Assembly (NCBI RefSeq): GCF_001886955.1
Contig: NZ_CP016804.1
Span: forward strand, 496,001-560,000
Length of the DNA stretch: 64,000 nucleotides
Reading direction: 5' to 3'
DNA from: Halodesulfurarchaeum formicicum
GTDB lineage: Archaea; Halobacteriota; Halobacteria; Halobacteriales; Halobacteriaceae
A program made the position numbers and the translations under genes. Below, in pieces: positions 12,995 through 44,855 of the stretch; positions within the stretch are counted from its first letter, which is position 1; every line of letters starts with the position of its first letter. Under the pieces are notes generated by a model, which saw only the letters and a program-made list of their open reading frames with translations, had not been told where the DNA came from and searched no databases.

Positions 12995-13441
12995 CTACCG
13001 ACACGACCGTCGTCGGGAACCGCAGCGGCCGGACGGTCGGGATTTCCGCCGTTCCGGGTGTGTATCCTCGGCCCGTGGTTCTGTCTCGACCGTCTCCGGG
13101 CTCGATTCCCGGTCGTCTGTCGCATCGGTTTCTCTCCGGAGCGAGCGCTCCACGTCCGAGACCGTCTCGTTCTCGAACAGCGTCTCCAGCTTTCGTTCGA
13201 ACTCGACGTCGTCTATCTCGCCGGCGACGTACCGTTGTTTGAGCGCTTCGAGACTCGTTGCCTTTTCGGAGGGCTGACTGGTGCTGTCCTCGCCGAATGA
13301 GAGCGACCCGCTCGCTACAACCGCCACGACTACGGCACTCGCGAGGAGGGCCAGTATCGGCCACTGACCCAGTCCCAGGCCCGTCTGTGCCAGCACGGCA
13401 ACGAAGATCCCGCTCGCGAGTAGTGGCCAGAGCCGTCTCAT
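12995..13441 (-). CDS. Two-TM SHOCT-domain membrane protein
   Basis: This 148 aa protein has two predicted membrane helices: about residues 4-24 (LWPLLASGIFVAVLAQTGLG) and 28-49 (ILALLASAVVVAVVASGSL). A SHOCT-type helical hairpin, SLEALKQRYVAGEIDDVEFERKLETL-like, lies near 63-90, and the tail is acidic then basic (ERRKSRPSGRCGSRRRSC). The ATG at 13441 overlaps the stop of the next SHOCT gene upstream (ATGA), showing an operon. Function is unknown; SHOCT hairpins are thought to mediate oligomerisation. Confidence 0.7.
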   Translation of the reverse strand: MRRLWPLLASGIFVAVLAQTGLGLGQWPILALLASAVVVAVVASGSLSFGEDSTSQPSEKATSLEALKQRYVAGEIDDVEFERKLETLFENETVSDVERSLRRETDATDDRESSPETVETEPRAEDTHPERRKSRPSGRCGSRRRSCR

Positions 13442-13821
13442 CGCTCGTCGTCGAGACGAAGCGTCGCCCGTCGTCGCTCGAACTCCTCCTCCGAGATGTC
13501 TCCGCGTGCGTATGCGGTCCGCAGTTCCTCGATTGCACCGTCCCCGGAACGGCCGAGTCGGTGATCGCCGTCTCCGGCGACCGCCTGGAAGAGAACGTAC
13601 GCCCCAGCGACGAGAAGTGCGAGGAAGAGCAGCTGTGCGAACGGTCCCAGCAGCCCCATTCCGCCACCGAAACCGCCGTATCCGCCACCCATCATGCCGC
13701 CGTACCCACCGCCCATCGTTCCATAGCCGCCGGTGGCCCCTGAGCGGAACGTTGGAACGAGGAGGATGAGTCCTGCGAGAGCCAACACGCCCAACCCGAC
13801 CCGCTTGCCCAGGCTGTTCAT
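13438..13821 (-). CDS. Gly/Met-rich SHOCT-domain membrane protein
   Basis: The protein is 127 aa. The first membrane helix (about 7-24) is followed by a Gly/Tyr/Met-rich stretch at 30-56 with repeated GGYGG and GGMMGG units. A second helix lies near 58-77, and a C-terminal SHOCT hairpin, AIEELRTAYARGDISEEEFE, near 95-114. The positive N-terminus predicts the Gly/Met loop outside and the SHOCT inside. Similar Met/Gly motifs recur in the regulator at 14117 and the exported protein at 14862. Confidence 0.75.
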   Translation of the reverse strand: MNSLGKRVGLGVLALAGLILLVPTFRSGATGGYGTMGGGYGGMMGGGYGGFGGGMGLLGPFAQLLFLALLVAGAYVLFQAVAGDGDHRLGRSGDGAIEELRTAYARGDISEEEFERRRATLRLDDER

Positions 13822-13907
13822 TATCGATCACCCCCGAGATCGGCGGTAGTATGGGTCGGATTCGGTCGGACTGGAACACGTATCGGTTCGGTCGGTTGGT
13901 CGGTCAT
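13821..13907 (-). CDS. Possible 28-aa leader ORF of the SHOCT operon
   Basis: This short ORF starts MTDQPTEPIRVPVRPNPTHT. Its TAA overlaps the ATG of the Gly/Met-rich SHOCT gene (TAATG), as expected for translational coupling. A strong TATA-like box (AGTATAAAAG on the minus strand, 13981-13990) lies upstream. It has no hydrophobic or recognisable motif. It could be a real small protein or merely the coupled leader of the operon. Confidence 0.35.
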   Translation of the reverse strand: MTDQPTEPIRVPVRPNPTHTTADLGGDR

Positions 13908-13980
13908 CGTCTATCACCCCGTAGATCTCCTCTGGGGTTATCTTCCTGCCCGAAAATGTAGTCCACAAAATCGCTTAGAA

Positions 13981-13990
13981 CTTTTATACT
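13981..13990 (-). promoter_or_regulatory. TATA-like box for the SHOCT operon
   Basis: On the minus strand this reads AGTATAAAAG, close to the haloarchaeal TATA consensus, in an AT-rich pocket between the divergent SHOCT operon and the membrane-HTH gene. The intergenic region 13908-14116 holds no other convincing ORF. On the plus strand TTTCATAT (14084-14091) could serve the gene at 14117. Confidence 0.5.
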
Positions 13991-14116
13991 GCCTGTTAAT
14001 CGTTTTTCGTCAGAAAGACCGTTTATCCGTGACGAGTTTGCCCCAAAGCGATCCCCGTCCGAATTCAGCCGGGAGGGGAGGGTTTTCATATCCTCGAAAG
14101 CCTTCGTCTCGATGAG

Positions 14117-14734
14117 ATGAACAAGCGACGCGCGGACCGCCTGGCGGCGATCGTCGTGGGTGCGGTTCTGCTGCTGGGCGGGTTGTGGACCTGGGATCGG
14201 TACCAGGCCCAGCAGGCTTTCGAGAGTCAGATGGACGGCATGATGGGGTCGATGATGGACGGGATGGGTACGACACAGGGTACAGACCCCCTGGTCATCG
14301 CCGTCGGCACGCTGGTGGTGGCGGGAGTGCTGGGCGGCGGCTATCTCGTCCTGCGAGACGAGTGGACCGAGCCCGACACCCAGGCGGCCCCGCAAATGGG
14401 CACGTCCGACATCGAATCCGCTGCCCACGAGGCGGGGGAGGAGTCCGCGGACGTGTCCGCGGACGCCACGTCGAGTGTCGAATCGGTGGCTGGGCTCGAA
14501 TCACAGCGCGCACTGCTCGATCTGCTGCCCGAAGACGAGCGGCGGATTCTCGAACCCGTTCTGGAATCGCCCGGCCTCACCCAGATCGAAGTCAGGGACC
14601 GTTCGGACTTCTCGAAGAGCAAGGTGAGCCAGACGGTCTCCGATTTGGAAAAGCGGGGGCTCGTGTACCGCGAAAAACAGGGGCGGACCTATCGTGTCTA
14701 CCCGGCCGAGCAATTGCCCGGCGTGACCGAGTGA
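14117..14734 (+). CDS. Membrane-anchored winged-helix regulator with Met-rich outer loop
   Basis: The protein is 205 aa. Helix 1 (about 9-25) and helix 2 (about 58-78) enclose a loop with MDGMMGSMMDGMG; the positive start MNKRR places this loop outside the cell. A long acidic linker leads to a cytoplasmic winged helix near 129-200 (LTQIEVRDRSDFSKSKVSQT, then VSDLEKRGLVYREKQGRTYR), MarR/IclR-like. The layout is that of a one-component transmembrane transcription factor. The Met-rich loop suggests soft-metal (for example Cu+) sensing, which is inference. It is divergent from the SHOCT operon. Confidence 0.75.
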   Translation: MNKRRADRLAAIVVGAVLLLGGLWTWDRYQAQQAFESQMDGMMGSMMDGMGTTQGTDPLVIAVGTLVVAGVLGGGYLVLRDEWTEPDTQAAPQMGTSDIESAAHEAGEESADVSADATSSVESVAGLESQRALLDLLPEDERRILEPVLESPGLTQIEVRDRSDFSKSKVSQTVSDLEKRGLVYREKQGRTYRVYPAEQLPGVTE

Positions 14735-14861
14735 CCGGGCTCGACGAACGGTCTCTGTTCTCAAAAACGCTTAGCTTCGTCGAGAAACGGTTTGCGCTGT
14801 TTTCCTGACTTCGTTCACGGCCACGGAGACAACCCCTCCCCGATCTATAGGTTCATTTGCA

Positions 14862-15371
14862 ATGCGACGAACCACACTCGTCCTGATCACTGGGGCGATT
14901 ATTACGGCACTCGCCGTGGGGGCATTTGCCCCGACCGCGCTTGCCCACTCTGGAACCGACACGCAGACATCGAACCCGTACGGTGACGCCTCGCCGTACG
15001 CGGACGCCGAGAACACCACCGACGCTCGCGCCCAGTCCATCGCGTACTGGATGGAAGAGCGCATGGGCCCTGATGGCGTTGCCGCCTTCGAGGAGCAGAC
15101 CGGCACGACGGTCGAAGCCGTGGCCCAGGGGATGGCCGAGCACATGGTTCCGTGGGGCGGAACCGCATCAGAACGGAGCCAGTACGGTCCGTTCGGGAGT
15201 GGCCCGAGCTGGTTCGGGCCGGCCGATAACTACGGGCCCGGTGGATACGGTCCGCAGGCACCCCATCATGGCGGCTACGGCATGGGCGGTCCCGGAATGG
15301 GTGGTCACGGCATGGGCGGCCACGGTTCCGGTGGGTACGGCATGGGTGGCTCCGGCTGGGGCGGCTGGTAA
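14862..15371 (+). CDS. Exported Gly/Met/His-rich protein
   Basis: This 169 aa protein has a Sec-type signal peptide (MRRTTLVLITGAIITALAVG, cleaved near ALAHS). A central helical region follows (IAYWMEERMGPDGVAAFEEQ then TTVEAVAQGMAEHM). The C-terminal 50 residues are low-complexity GYGMGG and GMGGHG repeats rich in Met and His. It lies 128 bases downstream of the membrane regulator on the same strand. No known family; an envelope metal-binding or structural role is a guess from composition. Confidence 0.7.
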   Translation: MRRTTLVLITGAIITALAVGAFAPTALAHSGTDTQTSNPYGDASPYADAENTTDARAQSIAYWMEERMGPDGVAAFEEQTGTTVEAVAQGMAEHMVPWGGTASERSQYGPFGSGPSWFGPADNYGPGGYGPQAPHHGGYGMGGPGMGGHGMGGHGSGGYGMGGSGWGGW

Positions 15372-15458: not shown

Positions 15459-15668
15459 ATGGCACTTAGTGCCCGCAACCGACTCGACGGAACTGTCAAA
15501 GAAGTCACGACGGGGGAGGTCATGGCCGAAGTCGTCATCGAACTCGGCGACGGTCAAGAGGTTACCTCGACGATCACCCTGAACTCCTGTGAACGGCTGG
15601 ATTTGGCCCCGGGTGATGCGGTCTCGGCAGTCATCAAGGCCAGCGAAGTGATGGTCAACAAGGACTGA
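15459..15668 (+). CDS. Molbindin-like single TOBE/Mop-domain protein
   Basis: This 69 aa protein starts MALSARNRLDGTVKEVTTGE, matching the SARN-x-L-x-G-x-V opening of molybdate-binding Mop domains, and continues AEVVIELGDGQEVTSTIT and VIKASEVMV. It is full length for a molbindin, which oligomerises to store or buffer molybdate or tungstate. The ATG at 15459 was chosen because the Mop domain starts there. The overlapping inverted repeat CCATACC/GGTATGG (15418-15424 and 15454-15460) just upstream may be an operator. Confidence 0.88.
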   Translation: MALSARNRLDGTVKEVTTGEVMAEVVIELGDGQEVTSTITLNSCERLDLAPGDAVSAVIKASEVMVNKD

Positions 15669-16850: not shown

Positions 16851-17249
16851 CTAAACGTGTTCCGTTCGCTCGATGTACTGTTCAATCGTGCTGGTCGAAA
16901 CATCACCAGCCGTCCCGACGTAGTACGATTCCTCCCAGAACCCACCGCCCCACAGGTATTCCTGTAATAGAGGTTTGTGCTGTTGCCACATCTCTCCTGC
17001 TGTAATGCTCTTGACTGCCCGTACAATCTCGCTCGGGGCGTGTTTGGGATGTGCCGACAGAAACAGGTGTACGTGGTCGGGTGAGATGTGCAACGACAGA
17101 ATCTCGTAGTTGTACTCGTCGCACACCGCTCGAAAACTCGATTCCAGTGAATCTTCTATCACACCCAGTATTGGGTGTCGATACTTCGGACACCACACAA
17201 AGTGGTAGTTGACGTTGTATACCGTGTGGTTTGACCGTTTCTCGCCCAT
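16851..17249 (-). CDS. tnpA: IS200/IS605 transposase TnpA (HUH Y1)
   Basis: This 132 aa protein starts MGEKRSNHTVYNVNYHFVWC. The HUH motif is in SPDHVHLFLSAHP, and the nucleophile tyrosine is probably in STIEQYIERTE near the C-terminus, after the conserved GGFWEESYYVGTAGDVS. Length and motifs match active single-strand transposases. The ATG at 17249 is preferred over 17279 because the family begins there. It is divergent from the RHH-tnpB operon, which starts 57 bases away. Confidence 0.92.
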   Translation of the reverse strand: MGEKRSNHTVYNVNYHFVWCPKYRHPILGVIEDSLESSFRAVCDEYNYEILSLHISPDHVHLFLSAHPKHAPSEIVRAVKSITAGEMWQQHKPLLQEYLWGGGFWEESYYVGTAGDVSTSTIEQYIERTEHV

Positions 17250-17305
17250 ACAGACAGTGCGTGGACAAGATTTAAGCATTTCAGTGAATAAGCAATACGT
17301 GTGAG

Positions 17306-17443
17306 ATGACTAAACGACTCACCGTGGACTTCGAGGACAAGCTATACAAGGAGTTCTCGAAGCAATGCATCGACGCTGAGAAAACTAAGTCCGAAGTCGT
17401 GCGTGGACTCGTCCAAGACTGGCTCAACGAATCCGAAGAATGA
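17306..17443 (+). CDS. Ribbon-helix-helix protein encoded inside the IS element
   Basis: This 45 aa protein, MTKRLTVDFEDKLYKEFSKQ then EKTKSEVVRGLVQDWLNESE, has the beta strand-helix-helix pattern of RHH/CopG regulators. Its stop overlaps the tnpB ATG (ATGA, 17440-17443), so it is translationally coupled to tnpB. It sits in the tnpA-tnpB divergent promoter region, where it could repress both promoters. That role is inferred from fold and position. Confidence 0.82.
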   Translation: MTKRLTVDFEDKLYKEFSKQCIDAEKTKSEVVRGLVQDWLNESEE

Positions 17444-18717
17444 CCGACGTACAGACTCTCGTGAAGACGCTGGATTTCCAACTGAACATCCATAGTGACA
17501 ACGAGAGTCTGCTGGAAGACGCCACGCTCGAATCCCGGTGGGCGTACAACGAAACTATCCGTCTTGCCAAGCAGGGCGTTGACTGGGATGAAATCCCCGA
17601 CCGTGTGGCCGACGACGCCGACCTCGTGAAAAATACCACACAGCGCGTCGTTGCGAAAGCACTCGGCGCGATGGAAAACTACCACGAGTACGACGACTTC
17701 GGCCTGCCGAGCCACACCAAAGACGGCGCGTACCCGCTTCGAGCCAACTACGAAGAAGGCTACAACCTCACGCTCCGAGACGACGGTACTATCGAGTTCC
17801 GTATCAGTGCCAAACCGTACAAGCACGTCAATGGCGTGCTGGTGGGCGACGACACCCATCTCGACATTCTGCGGACGGCACTCGCTGGTGACGAGTGGTC
17901 CATCGGGACAGCCGAAGCCCTGTTCCACGACGGAACACCTGAGTTGCACGTCAATGTCACGAACACCGAGCGTACCGTCCGAGAGAAACAGGACTCTCGG
18001 ACAGTCATTGGCGTGGACGTGAACGAAGACAACATGGCACTGTCGGCACTGTCAGCAGAAGGCGTTGAGGATACGCTTGTCATTGACTTCCCCGAAATCA
18101 AGTTCGAGCGTCACCGCTACTTCACGATGCGAAAGCGGGTGCAGAACGCCGAGAAACCGAGTATGCACGATACGCTCGAAGGTCGGGAAGAACGGTTCGT
18201 CCGTGACCGACTCCACAAGGTGAGCCGTCACATCGTGGAATGGAGCCACCAGTTCGAGAAGCCGTGCATCGTCTTTGAAGACCTCAAAGAGATGCGCGAC
18301 AGTATCGACTACGGCACTCGGATGAACCGACGCCTGCACCACCTGCCGTTCCGTGCGCTCCAATACTACACGTCGTACAAAGCCGCTTTCGAGGGCGTGC
18401 CAACGGCGTGGATTGACCCTGAATACACGAGTCAGCAGTGTCCGATGTGCGGACACACAGAACGGGCGAACCGCCACAGAAAGCGGTTCAAGTGCCGGTC
18501 GTGCCAGCATCAGGACCACGCCGACCGAAGTGCGAGCGTCAACATCGCTGTGAAAGGTATCGAGAAGCATCAAGACTGGAATGTGCCTGCTCTCAACAGC
18601 CTTCCCCAAGTGCGGAAGGTGCGACGGCAGGCATCGGGGGCCGTGGACGCCCCGACCGTGACCTCGGATACCGCGAGAGGGCACCATCCCAATGGTATCC
18701 GAGGCGTGTCCGACTAA
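17440..18717 (+). CDS. tnpB: TnpB RNA-guided nuclease, catalytically complete
   Basis: The protein is 425 aa. The RuvC-like acids are all visible: D193 (IGVDVNEDN), E280 (CIVFEDLKEM) and D362 (DHADRSASVNIA). The zinc-ribbon cysteines are CPMC (334/337) and CRSC (352/355). TnpB uses a guide RNA from the element's right end to cut target DNA and promote IS retention. The 3' hairpin at 18728 would be part of that RNA, and the guide would read from about 18758. Inferred to be active from the intact motifs. Confidence 0.93.
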   Translation: MTDVQTLVKTLDFQLNIHSDNESLLEDATLESRWAYNETIRLAKQGVDWDEIPDRVADDADLVKNTTQRVVAKALGAMENYHEYDDFGLPSHTKDGAYPLRANYEEGYNLTLRDDGTIEFRISAKPYKHVNGVLVGDDTHLDILRTALAGDEWSIGTAEALFHDGTPELHVNVTNTERTVREKQDSRTVIGVDVNEDNMALSALSAEGVEDTLVIDFPEIKFERHRYFTMRKRVQNAEKPSMHDTLEGREERFVRDRLHKVSRHIVEWSHQFEKPCIVFEDLKEMRDSIDYGTRMNRRLHHLPFRALQYYTSYKAAFEGVPTAWIDPEYTSQQCPMCGHTERANRHRKRFKCRSCQHQDHADRSASVNIAVKGIEKHQDWNVPALNSLPQVRKVRRQASGAVDAPTVTSDTARGHHPNGIRGVSD

Positions 18718-42288: not shown

Positions 42289-44855
42289 TACGATTCACCG
42301 GTGCGATCTCGCTCCCACTGTGCCGTGACGGAGCGTCGCACCATCCATGCCACGGTGAGGAAGGCCGGCATCGCCACGCCGAGCGCACCGAGTAACAGGC
42401 CCCAGTCGCTCAGGCGCAATGGAACCGTGCCGAAGTACCGGTTCAGCGGAGTGTACAGGACGGCTAGCTGGAGCAGGATGGAGCCGAGGACCGCAGCCGA
42501 GAGCCAGGGGTTCGAGAGCGGGCTCGTTCCTCGCGTGAACCGCACCAGGTACAGCTTCGCGATTTCGAAGCCGACGAAGCCGGTGAACACCATCGTCATC
42601 GCGTACGGCGTCACCGCTGGAGCGCCATCGAGGGCGAGCACCAGCACACCGAGCAGCACGACCGTCGCCGTCCCGCCGAAGCCCCCTATGAGTGTCAGCA
42701 TCGGTCGATCGATGACGCCGCTCTCCGTGCGCGGGCCGCGTTTCATCACGTCCGAGGCTTCGGGATCCGCCCCGATCGCGAGCGCCGGGAGGCCGTCGGT
42801 GAGCAGGTTGATCCAGAGCAACTGCACCGCCGGGAGGACGAGATAGCCCCAGAGCGAGGCGATCAGGACCAGGAGCACCTCCGCGAGGTTCGCCGAGAGG
42901 AGATAGCCCACGAACTTCCAGATGTTGTCGAAGATCGCCCGCCCACGCTGGATGGCTCCCTCGATTGTCGCGTAGTTGTCATCCAGGAGCGTGATGTCAC
43001 TGGCTTGCTTGGCGACGTCGGTGCCTCTGATGCCCATCGCGATGCCCACGTCGGCGTTCTTCAGCGCGGGCGCATCGTTCACCCCATCGCCCGTCATCGC
43101 GACGGTTCGGCCGCTGTTCTGCAGGGCCTGCAGGATCCGGACCTTGTGGGTTGGGGTCGTGCGTGCGAAGATGTCCACGTTCCCAACTTGCCCGGCGAGA
43201 GCCTGCTCGTCCATGGCGTCGATCTCCGGGCCGGTGAGGACGGGAGACTCGATCCCGACCGCCCGCCCGATCGCCCTCGCCGTGCGGCGGTTGTCCCCCG
43301 TGATCATCTTGACTGCGATGCCGGCACGCCGAGTCTCTGCGATGGCGGCTTCGACCTCCGGGCGGGGCGGATCGATCAGCCCCTGTAGTCCGACGAACAC
43401 CAGGTCCGACTCGGGGTCACCGGCTCCGGCTTCTTTGTACGCGAACCCCAGGACCCGCAGTGCGTCGTCGGCGAAGGCCGCGACTTGTGCTTCGATTCGG
43501 TCCCGTGTCTCCTGGTCCAGGGGTTTCTCGCCGTCGGCGGTCAAGATCCGGTTCGAGCGCTCCAGAACGACGGTGGGGGCTCCCTTCATCCGGACCCGAT
43601 CCTCGTGGATCGTCGTCATGCGCTTGCGATCCGCCGAGAACGGGATCTCGTCCGTTCGCGGCCGCCGCTCGCGCAGTGTTGCCACGTCGATCCCCGCTTC
43701 GATGGCCGCCTCGTAGAGGGCGTTTTCCGTGGGTTCGCCCCGGTCCTCATCGGCGTCGTTACAGAGCGCGCCGATGGTGAGCAGCGTCTCCACCTGCTCG
43801 CTTCCATCGAACTGCTCGTGGCTCTCGTCGTGGACCCAGAACCGATCGACGTGCATCCGCCCCTCAGTGAGGGTCCCTGTCTTGTCCGTACAGACCACGT
43901 CGACCGAACCGAGGGACTCCACAGCCGGCAGGGTTCGCACCAGTGCGTTCGCATCGGCCATCCGCCGGACGCCGAGTGCGAGGGTCAACGTGACCACGGC
44001 TGGCAGTCCCTCCGGGATGGCGGCGACGGCCAGGGAGACCGCAGCCAGGGCGGCGTCCACGAGCGCCGTTCCCCGCCAGACCAAAAGTGGGACGACGAGC
44101 GCGGAGAGTGCGAGTACGCCCAGGCCGATCCGCTTCCCCAGTCGGTCGAGGTCCCGCTGGAGCGGCGTCTGGCGCTCCCGGGCGGTGGCCAGTTCGTCCG
44201 CGATGGCCCCCACCTCGGTCTCCATCCCGGTTTCGACCACGAGGGCTCGACCCCGTCCGCGAGTAACCACCGTCCCGCGGAAGACCATGTTCGCCCGCTC
44301 CGCGACCGGGGTTGTTGCCGCCAGTTTCCCGGCCTGTTTCTCGACGGGGACACTCTCGCCGGTCAGCGGGGCCTCGTCGACTTCCAGGCTCGCGGTCTCA
44401 AGCACGCGAGCGTCGGCCGGGATCGCGTCCCCGCCCTCCAGGACGATCACGTCCCCCGGGACGACCGCCCGTTGGCTGATATCCACTCGCTTGCCGTTCC
44501 GGATCACCGTTGCCTCGGGGGTCGCCATCTCGGCCAACGCCTGGAGGCTTCGTTCGGCGCGGTACTCCTGGACGAACCCGAAGAGGCCGTTTGCCAGCAG
44601 GATCACGGCGATGAGGACGGTATCGACGAGGTGGCCGATCGCCGCCGAGAGGATCGCGGCCCCGATCAGGACGAGAATCAGCCCGCTCGTGAACTGCGAG
44701 ACGAAGACCGCAAGCGGGGTTCGGCCCCCCTCGCTCTCGATCTCGTTCGGCCCGACGGCTTCGAGTCGCTCCCTGGCTTCCGTGTCAGTCAGGCCGCTGG
44801 CGTCGCTGTCCAGGGTCTCGAACACCGCCGCGACGGGCCGGTCGTGCCAGGCCAT
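42288..44855 (-). CDS. Calcium-type P-type ATPase (P2A/SERCA-like)
   Basis: The protein is 855 aa. The motifs are LTGESVPVEK (about 164-173), IPEGLPAVVTLTLALG (about 280-295, the PEGLP calcium-pump signature), the phosphorylation site CTDKTGTLTEG with Asp324, MKGAP in the N-domain and TGDGVNDAPALKNADVGIAM in the hinge. About ten membrane helices are present. It probably exports Ca2+ using ATP. Its stop overlaps the start of the exchanger gene, now split by an IS. Confidence 0.93.
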   Translation of the reverse strand: MAWHDRPVAAVFETLDSDASGLTDTEARERLEAVGPNEIESEGGRTPLAVFVSQFTSGLILVLIGAAILSAAIGHLVDTVLIAVILLANGLFGFVQEYRAERSLQALAEMATPEATVIRNGKRVDISQRAVVPGDVIVLEGGDAIPADARVLETASLEVDEAPLTGESVPVEKQAGKLAATTPVAERANMVFRGTVVTRGRGRALVVETGMETEVGAIADELATARERQTPLQRDLDRLGKRIGLGVLALSALVVPLLVWRGTALVDAALAAVSLAVAAIPEGLPAVVTLTLALGVRRMADANALVRTLPAVESLGSVDVVCTDKTGTLTEGRMHVDRFWVHDESHEQFDGSEQVETLLTIGALCNDADEDRGEPTENALYEAAIEAGIDVATLRERRPRTDEIPFSADRKRMTTIHEDRVRMKGAPTVVLERSNRILTADGEKPLDQETRDRIEAQVAAFADDALRVLGFAYKEAGAGDPESDLVFVGLQGLIDPPRPEVEAAIAETRRAGIAVKMITGDNRRTARAIGRAVGIESPVLTGPEIDAMDEQALAGQVGNVDIFARTTPTHKVRILQALQNSGRTVAMTGDGVNDAPALKNADVGIAMGIRGTDVAKQASDITLLDDNYATIEGAIQRGRAIFDNIWKFVGYLLSANLAEVLLVLIASLWGYLVLPAVQLLWINLLTDGLPALAIGADPEASDVMKRGPRTESGVIDRPMLTLIGGFGGTATVVLLGVLVLALDGAPAVTPYAMTMVFTGFVGFEIAKLYLVRFTRGTSPLSNPWLSAAVLGSILLQLAVLYTPLNRYFGTVPLRLSDWGLLLGALGVAMPAFLTVAWMVRRSVTAQWERDRTGES

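Follow-up and report, generated by a model that had tools for sequence, protein, structure and literature searches.

In bacteria, CusRS, PcoRS and SilRS control the exported proteins PcoE and SilE, and two proteins usually share the work of envelope sensing. SilE is a small exported Met/His-rich binder (PMC5008109, PMC10080550), and MxxH/HxxM motifs in its peptides bind Ag+ (PMC10080550). In haloarchaea, a described copper regulator is VNG1179C of Halobacterium salinarum, an Lrp-family protein with a TRASH domain that is described as cytoplasmic and regulates an ATPase and CopZ-type chaperones (PMC3551603). A survey of Haloferax mediterranei reported that a copper-specific regulator is absent from the annotation (PMC9240420), and in Haloferax alexandrinus silver raised the expression of copA and copZ and of genes for a SHOCT membrane protein and a COG0701 permease, as these genes are named there (PMC10694973). 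ArnR and ArnR1 of Sulfolobus acidocaldarius are archaeal one-component factors that combine a membrane anchor and an HTH domain in one chain and have surface-related targets (PMC6396743). ArnR is tied to archaellum and pili control and to ArnC phosphorylation.

Here we analyse a gene cluster within a 64,000-nucleotide stretch of Halodesulfurarchaeum formicicum DNA (hereafter the window), which belongs to a genome of 2.09 Mb on one contig. The original prediction proposed an envelope metal-sensing system in which Met/Gly motifs are common to three neighbouring proteins, encoded from 13438, 14117 and 14862; all of these reading frames and motifs are present. Judging from sequence comparison, we put at roughly 0.6 the probability that the 14117 protein senses Cu(I)/Ag(I) at the envelope and, as a single chain, drives expression of an exported protein that binds metal. 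The promoter of the exported protein also proved to contain a repeat, ACGTTCTCGAACGTTCTC, that is conserved and phased at 10 bp. No published description of the module was found in the open-licence literature.

A Met-rich loop and a winged helix in one chain

The gene at 14117..14734 on the plus strand encodes a predicted membrane-anchored one-component regulator, identified from its DUF7343 (PF24034) and MarR_2 matches, AlphaFold helices and a 41-member alignment. Two hydrophobic segments flank MDGMMGSMMDGMG. TM1 spans residues about 9-26 and TM2 residues about 59-80, and the predicted outward loop between them (residues 27-58) carries Met39, 42, 43, 46, 47 and 50, and Gln54. A disordered linker precedes the winged helix (residues about 123-200). 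The AlphaFold model places helices at residues 3-42 and 58-84, the disordered linker at ~94-122 and the winged helix from residue 123 on. The C-terminal DUF7343 match scores 40.1 bits, above the curated cut-off of 27.6, and the winged helix also matches MarR_2 (34.8 bits). A PDB sequence search gave a single weak MarR match, Foldseek returned MarR/ArsR-type winged helices for the most part, and Pfam matching gave neither an Lrp fold nor a TRASH domain. The earlier proposal that membrane segments and a DNA-binding domain lie in one chain is borne out by the hydrophobic segments, the AlphaFold helices and the DUF7343/MarR winged helix. The loop is predicted to lie outside because Arg/Lys residues precede TM1 and an invariant Arg follows TM2 in the family alignment.

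Near full-length relatives of the regulator (E<=1e-30) occur in 63 of the 243 genomes of the order, and matches were found in 36 PLSDB plasmid records, where the usual annotation is 'MarR family transcriptional regulator'. Comparison of a non-redundant set (41 members, pairwise identity <85%) gave a coherent haloarchaeal family with the layout TM – short loop – TM – linker – DUF7343/MarR-type winged helix. Across the 41 members, 11.2% of loop residues are Met, as against 0.3% of those in the cytoplasmic part after position 90. Four Met columns and one His column are conserved, namely Met39 (93%), Met42 (73%), Met43 (83%), Met50 (68%) and His54 (90%), so that the Met conservation looked for in the loop was found. 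These columns are kept at ~50% overall identity, whereas the linker diverges and is unconserved. The recognition-helix region, FSKSKVSQTVSxLEKRGL, is nearly invariant. A paralogue (L212) shares the TM-loop-TM-winged helix layout with a Met-poor loop, and a distant DUF7343 protein (L202) combines the membrane layout with an extra DUF7345 domain. With such members in the class, the Met loop marks the regulator subfamily and not DUF7343 as a whole.

Exported and SHOCT proteins beside the regulator

Downstream, at 14862..15371 on the plus strand, lies the gene of a small exported protein, hereafter exp. Its product has an N-terminal hydrophobic segment, a conserved helical core (YWMEERMGPDGV) and a Gly/Met/His tail with MGGH and GMGGHG repeats; AlphaFold predicts an N-terminal helix, the helical core at residues 53-94 and a disordered tail. 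It has no family match in Pfam or NCBIfam. Mature exp proteins contain 7.7% Met and 7.9% His, and His-rich forms have 24% His. MxxH/HxxM motifs number 57 in the family as against 24 in shuffles, and 3 as against 0.7 in the window protein alone. A Cys lies within the last four residues in 31 of the 33 exported proteins compared and is absent from the window protein. The exp gene is present in 51 genomes, 48 of which carry the regulator. Directly 3' of exp, a small Mop/TOBE molybdate-binding protein is encoded at 15459-15668; none was seen near the other regulator loci examined.

Two SHOCT membrane proteins are encoded on the minus strand. The gene at 13438-13821 (PF09851, 33.9 bits, above the Pfam cut-off) specifies a protein with a GGYGGMMGGGYGG loop (GGYGGMMGGG). 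The second, at 12995..13441 (PF09851, 28.7 bits), has no Met/Gly loop and is kept in a genome of the same genus (L082); its start is most likely the ATG at 13441, a correction that leaves a 4-base overlap with the stop of the 13438 gene. Near the cluster is an IS200/IS605-type element (16851-18717), with a Y1 transposase (PF01797) at 16851-17279 on the minus strand and a TnpB-like gene (PF07282) at 17440-18717 on the plus strand.

As controls for the 41 non-redundant regulator loci, we took 39 arbitrary 19-kb regions, most of them on the same contigs. The conserved synteny that had been suggested for the gene set is evident: exp lies beside the regulator in 25 of the 41 loci and SHOCT genes in 29, compared with 0 of 39 controls in either case. 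Cu-type P1B ATPases (CPH, or CPC with SSxxVxxN) occur in 14/41 loci and 0/39 controls (p=3e-5); the five P-type ATPases of the control regions are CPC without the Cu motif. ArsP_1-type permeases with YHS domains (14/41 versus 0/39) and CopZ-type HMA proteins (7/41 versus 0/39) are likewise found near the regulator. A halocyanin fused to SHOCT, a multicopper oxidase and a Csp-like DUF326 protein occur at fewer loci, at frequencies that are not significant in the non-redundant set. One ATPase near the family is of SPC/HEGST type, and DUF302 and thioredoxin-family genes are often found downstream. The annotated cluster genes include no sensor histidine kinase or response regulator.

The module is carried by named plasmids, including Haloarcula marismortui pNG600 and Halobaculum pCBA1158-2, both of which hold an AsnC-family regulator near the copper genes. 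Many chromosomal copies consist of regulator, exp and SHOCT genes, with no copper genes nearby. This is also the case in the window, whose cluster has no copper gene beside it; a CopB-like ATPase next to an HMA protein, CopA and CopZ are encoded elsewhere in the genome. A cation-transport P-type ATPase (PF00122, PF13246) at 42822-44639 on the minus strand is only ~30% identical to CopB.

A phased repeat in the exp promoter

An alignment of 25 promoters shows strong conservation over the 140 bp that precede exp, with, in order, TGAACGGTC, AAACGnTTAG, ACGTTCTCGAACGTTCTC at -84 and GTTCACACCCA...GATAACC. AAACGnTTAG is probably the BRE/TATA element. The ACG triplets are spaced 19, 9, 11 and 10 bp apart, a spacing by which the half-sites tend toward one DNA face. 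A conserved RNA leader 5' of exp was considered and rejected, RNAalifold giving 5 weak pairs (-1.04 kcal/mol); with such weak support, we read the conservation as acting at the DNA level.

We built a PWM from 24 exp promoters and used it to scan 17 held-out loci, namely the window, with its diverged exp, and 16 loci without a BLAST-detected exp near the regulator. It found a site in 13 of the 17, and 11 of these sites lie on the same strand, 33-119 bp past the regulator stop. On 741 kb of control sequence, the PWM gave 1 match of at least 18 bits. Small exported His-rich proteins follow the held-out sites in 8 cases, with, for example, EHMAGHNHGEHM repeats. At four loci (L042, L056, L069 and L047), the proteins behind the motif consist of His/Met repeats (EHMAGHNHGEHM, GEHHAEHDH) and end in GHC or similar.

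Comparison across genomes associates the array with the regulator. A strict motif pattern occurs in 47 of 63 regulator-positive genomes versus 23 of 180 regulator-negative ones (p=2e-19), and the backward control pattern gave 1 match. At exp genes unlinked from a regulator that the genome carries at another place (L245, L246), the motif persists at 21.1 and 24.6 bits; it is absent from exp remnants in regulator-free genomes (L243, L244), a comparison that is suggestive only, because it is small (n=2 remnants) and both remnants are truncated genes. The motif is not a general feature of CopA, CopZ or permease promoters, and a single SHOCT promoter (L064) carries it at 23.5 bits. Autoregulation through the same repeat at the promoter of the regulator gene was rejected, as the repeat is not a general feature there. 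An 18-mer, ACGCTCTCAGACGATCTC, is identical in four regulator-free genomes of one genus (L191 and relatives; G007, G079, G159, G213). The copper-specific neighbours and the conserved promoter repeat, both read from sequence, support envelope metal sensing.

The window copy

In the window, the candidate operator begins with an ACGGTC half-site at 14748..14753 (plus strand; block A), which aligns with TGAACGGTC across the 25 exp promoters. It is followed by AAAAACGCTTAG at 14763..14774 (plus), a probable BRE/TATA element by its likeness to the conserved AAACGnTTAG, which would also serve as a second half-site (ACGCTT at 14767). Block B, at 14787..14804 (plus), reads ACGGTTTGCGCTGTTTTC, a degraded form of the consensus ACGTTCTCGAACGTTCTC; in the same-genus relative it reads ACGTTTTACAACGTTCTC. 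Between block B and the exp start, at 14813..14834 (plus), lies a further element (GTTCACGGCCACGGAGACAACC / GTTCACnCCCAnnGnGATAACC), kept in the 25 promoters and with no supported RNA structure. The half-sites at 14748, 14767 and 14787 (ACGGTT) hold the family spacing of 19 and 20 bp. Block B, however, has decayed in its second half, and the score is -1.1 bits; L082 gives 19.4 bits at the expected place.

At the position where His is usual among the relatives, the window regulator carries Gln54. The copy in the window stands out from the family, with no conserved His, no C-terminal Cys in exp, a partly degraded operator and no adjacent copper gene. Because of Gln54, the missing Cys and the degraded block B, this copy may be relaxed or tuned otherwise. 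A second motif in the same genome (G000:C1:1267205; L196 3206; 26 bits), near a membrane-protein reading frame, is likely a chance match, since the control density predicts ~2-3 matches of at least 18 bits in a genome of this size; it could still be a second target.

Proposed mechanism and alternatives

In the mechanism that we propose, the N terminus and winged helix of the 14117 protein would be cytoplasmic, and the Met(-His) loop would bind a soft metal outside. Binding would rearrange the regulator helices, probably in a dimer or oligomer, and so alter winged-helix activity. The winged helices would act at 10-bp-phased ACGnT(C/T) half-sites around the exp BRE/TATA box and the probable start site. 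Release or rearrangement of the regulator would increase transcription of the exported Met/His-rich protein, which would soak up metal extracellularly, and transcription of the SHOCT membrane proteins would also be raised where their genes follow in the same direction. On many plasmids the module lies together with CopA/CopB ATPases, CopZ, the YHS-domain permease, halocyanin and an AsnC-family regulator of its own kind; there, sensing at the envelope would add to sensing in the cytoplasm.

Sequence comparison establishes the family and its layout, the conserved Met residues, the synteny, and the promoter array with its link to the regulator. From these we infer which metal is sensed, that it is sensed directly, that the regulator binds the array and whether it represses or activates. 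Met-rich loops in general point to Cu(I)/Ag(I), and the outward position of such a loop, the copper neighbours and the exported Met/His-rich targets together favour sensing of Cu(I)/Ag(I) outside the membrane. The array straddles AAACGnTTAG, and block B lies over the probable start site; if AAACGnTTAG is the BRE/TATA element, this arrangement would suit repression relieved by metal, towards which we lean, with activation from block A as the alternative. In the full reading, a single-chain factor embedded in the membrane would detect external Cu(I)/Ag(I) directly by its Met-rich loop and, acting on a phased operator array, would govern a SilE-like exported protein, independently of phosphotransfer; we give this reading even odds.

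The ligand could be something other than copper or silver. External oxidants or reactive sulfur species might be sensed, through Met oxidation or the terminal Cys of the exp product; the near-constant Cys and the downstream DUF302 and thioredoxin-family genes would fit this, and plasmid loci L089, L091 and L100 hold sulfur-oxidation-like genes (clusters 26, 34 and 45, assigned by inspection only). We consider this rather unlikely, as copper-type P1B ATPases, CopZ, halocyanin and the YHS permease are far commoner neighbours, and the exported forms richest in His fit metal binding, not redox sensing. That the protein senses a different soft or borderline metal, for example Zn, Hg or As/Sb, appears about equally unlikely. 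The YHS permease is of ArsP_1 type, the SPC/HEGST ATPase is like Zn/Cd pumps, and Zn and Ni are among the metals that His-rich exported proteins can bind; yet the general link of Met-rich loops is to Cu(I)/Ag(I), the great majority of the neighbouring ATPases are of the CPH or Cu-type CPC kind, and an unsystematic scan of the neighbours searched found none assigned to mercury or arsenic detoxification.

The array might be bound by a different factor, the membrane protein having another target. As motif and exp occur together, the association of motif and regulator across genomes would by itself also fit another protein on the exp promoter, and the AsnC-family regulator near copper genes on pNG600 and pCBA1158-2 could be such a factor. 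We regard this as unlikely, since chromosomal loci without copper genes again have the motif immediately after the regulator gene, and since it is kept at exp genes unlinked from the regulator and missing from the two remnants in regulator-free genomes. That the Gly/Met-rich stretches are low-complexity sequence arising by drift, with no sensory role, is very improbable: the window exported protein and the SHOCT loop are compositionally simple, but single Met/His columns of the regulator are conserved where the linker is not, and L212 has the same layout without a Met-rich loop.

If Cu(I)/Ag(I) sensing by the 14117 family is confirmed, it would give archaea a way to detect metal beyond the membrane, alongside the cytoplasmic regulator already described, with one protein in place of a kinase-regulator pair. 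It would also give a function to part of the DUF7343 class, to SHOCT proteins whose loops are rich in Met and Gly and to a family of exported proteins that now carry the annotation 'hypothetical'. The module is found on named plasmids such as pNG600, hence in strains that may be open to genetics, and the predicted operator allows the hypothesis to be tested directly.

Comparison with known systems

The original prediction held that no described system was known to have this layout. Relatives do exist, in the haloarchaeal DUF7343 membrane proteins and in ArnR, so that the arrangement is partly precedented. Haloarchaeal DUF7343 membrane proteins (PF24034, some with DUF7345) share the DNA-binding family and the anchoring of the 14117 protein, and L212 has the same layout; they differ in that L212 lacks the Met-rich loop and L202 has DUF7345 instead. 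VNG1179C provides haloarchaeal copper-dependent control, and an AsnC-family regulator shares plasmids with the module; the domain content, location and targets described for VNG1179C set it apart from the 14117 protein.

ArnR is likened to the 14117 protein by layout. Its HTH domain is N-terminal (PMC13286277), whereas the winged helix of the 14117 protein is C-terminal, and neither a Met loop nor a link to metal is described for ArnR. With CusRS, PcoRS and SilRS, the proposed system has in common envelope Cu/Ag sensing and a small exported Met/His-rich protein. Those systems use two proteins and phosphotransfer as against one chain here, and we found no sequence relationship. The exp product has the features of SilE and PcoE, being exported, largely disordered and rich in MxxH/HxxM, and gave no match to their sequence families in Pfam or NCBIfam. 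By the features tested, the 14117 system resembles ArnR in kind and CusRS/SilRS with SilE in role, and is a member of neither.
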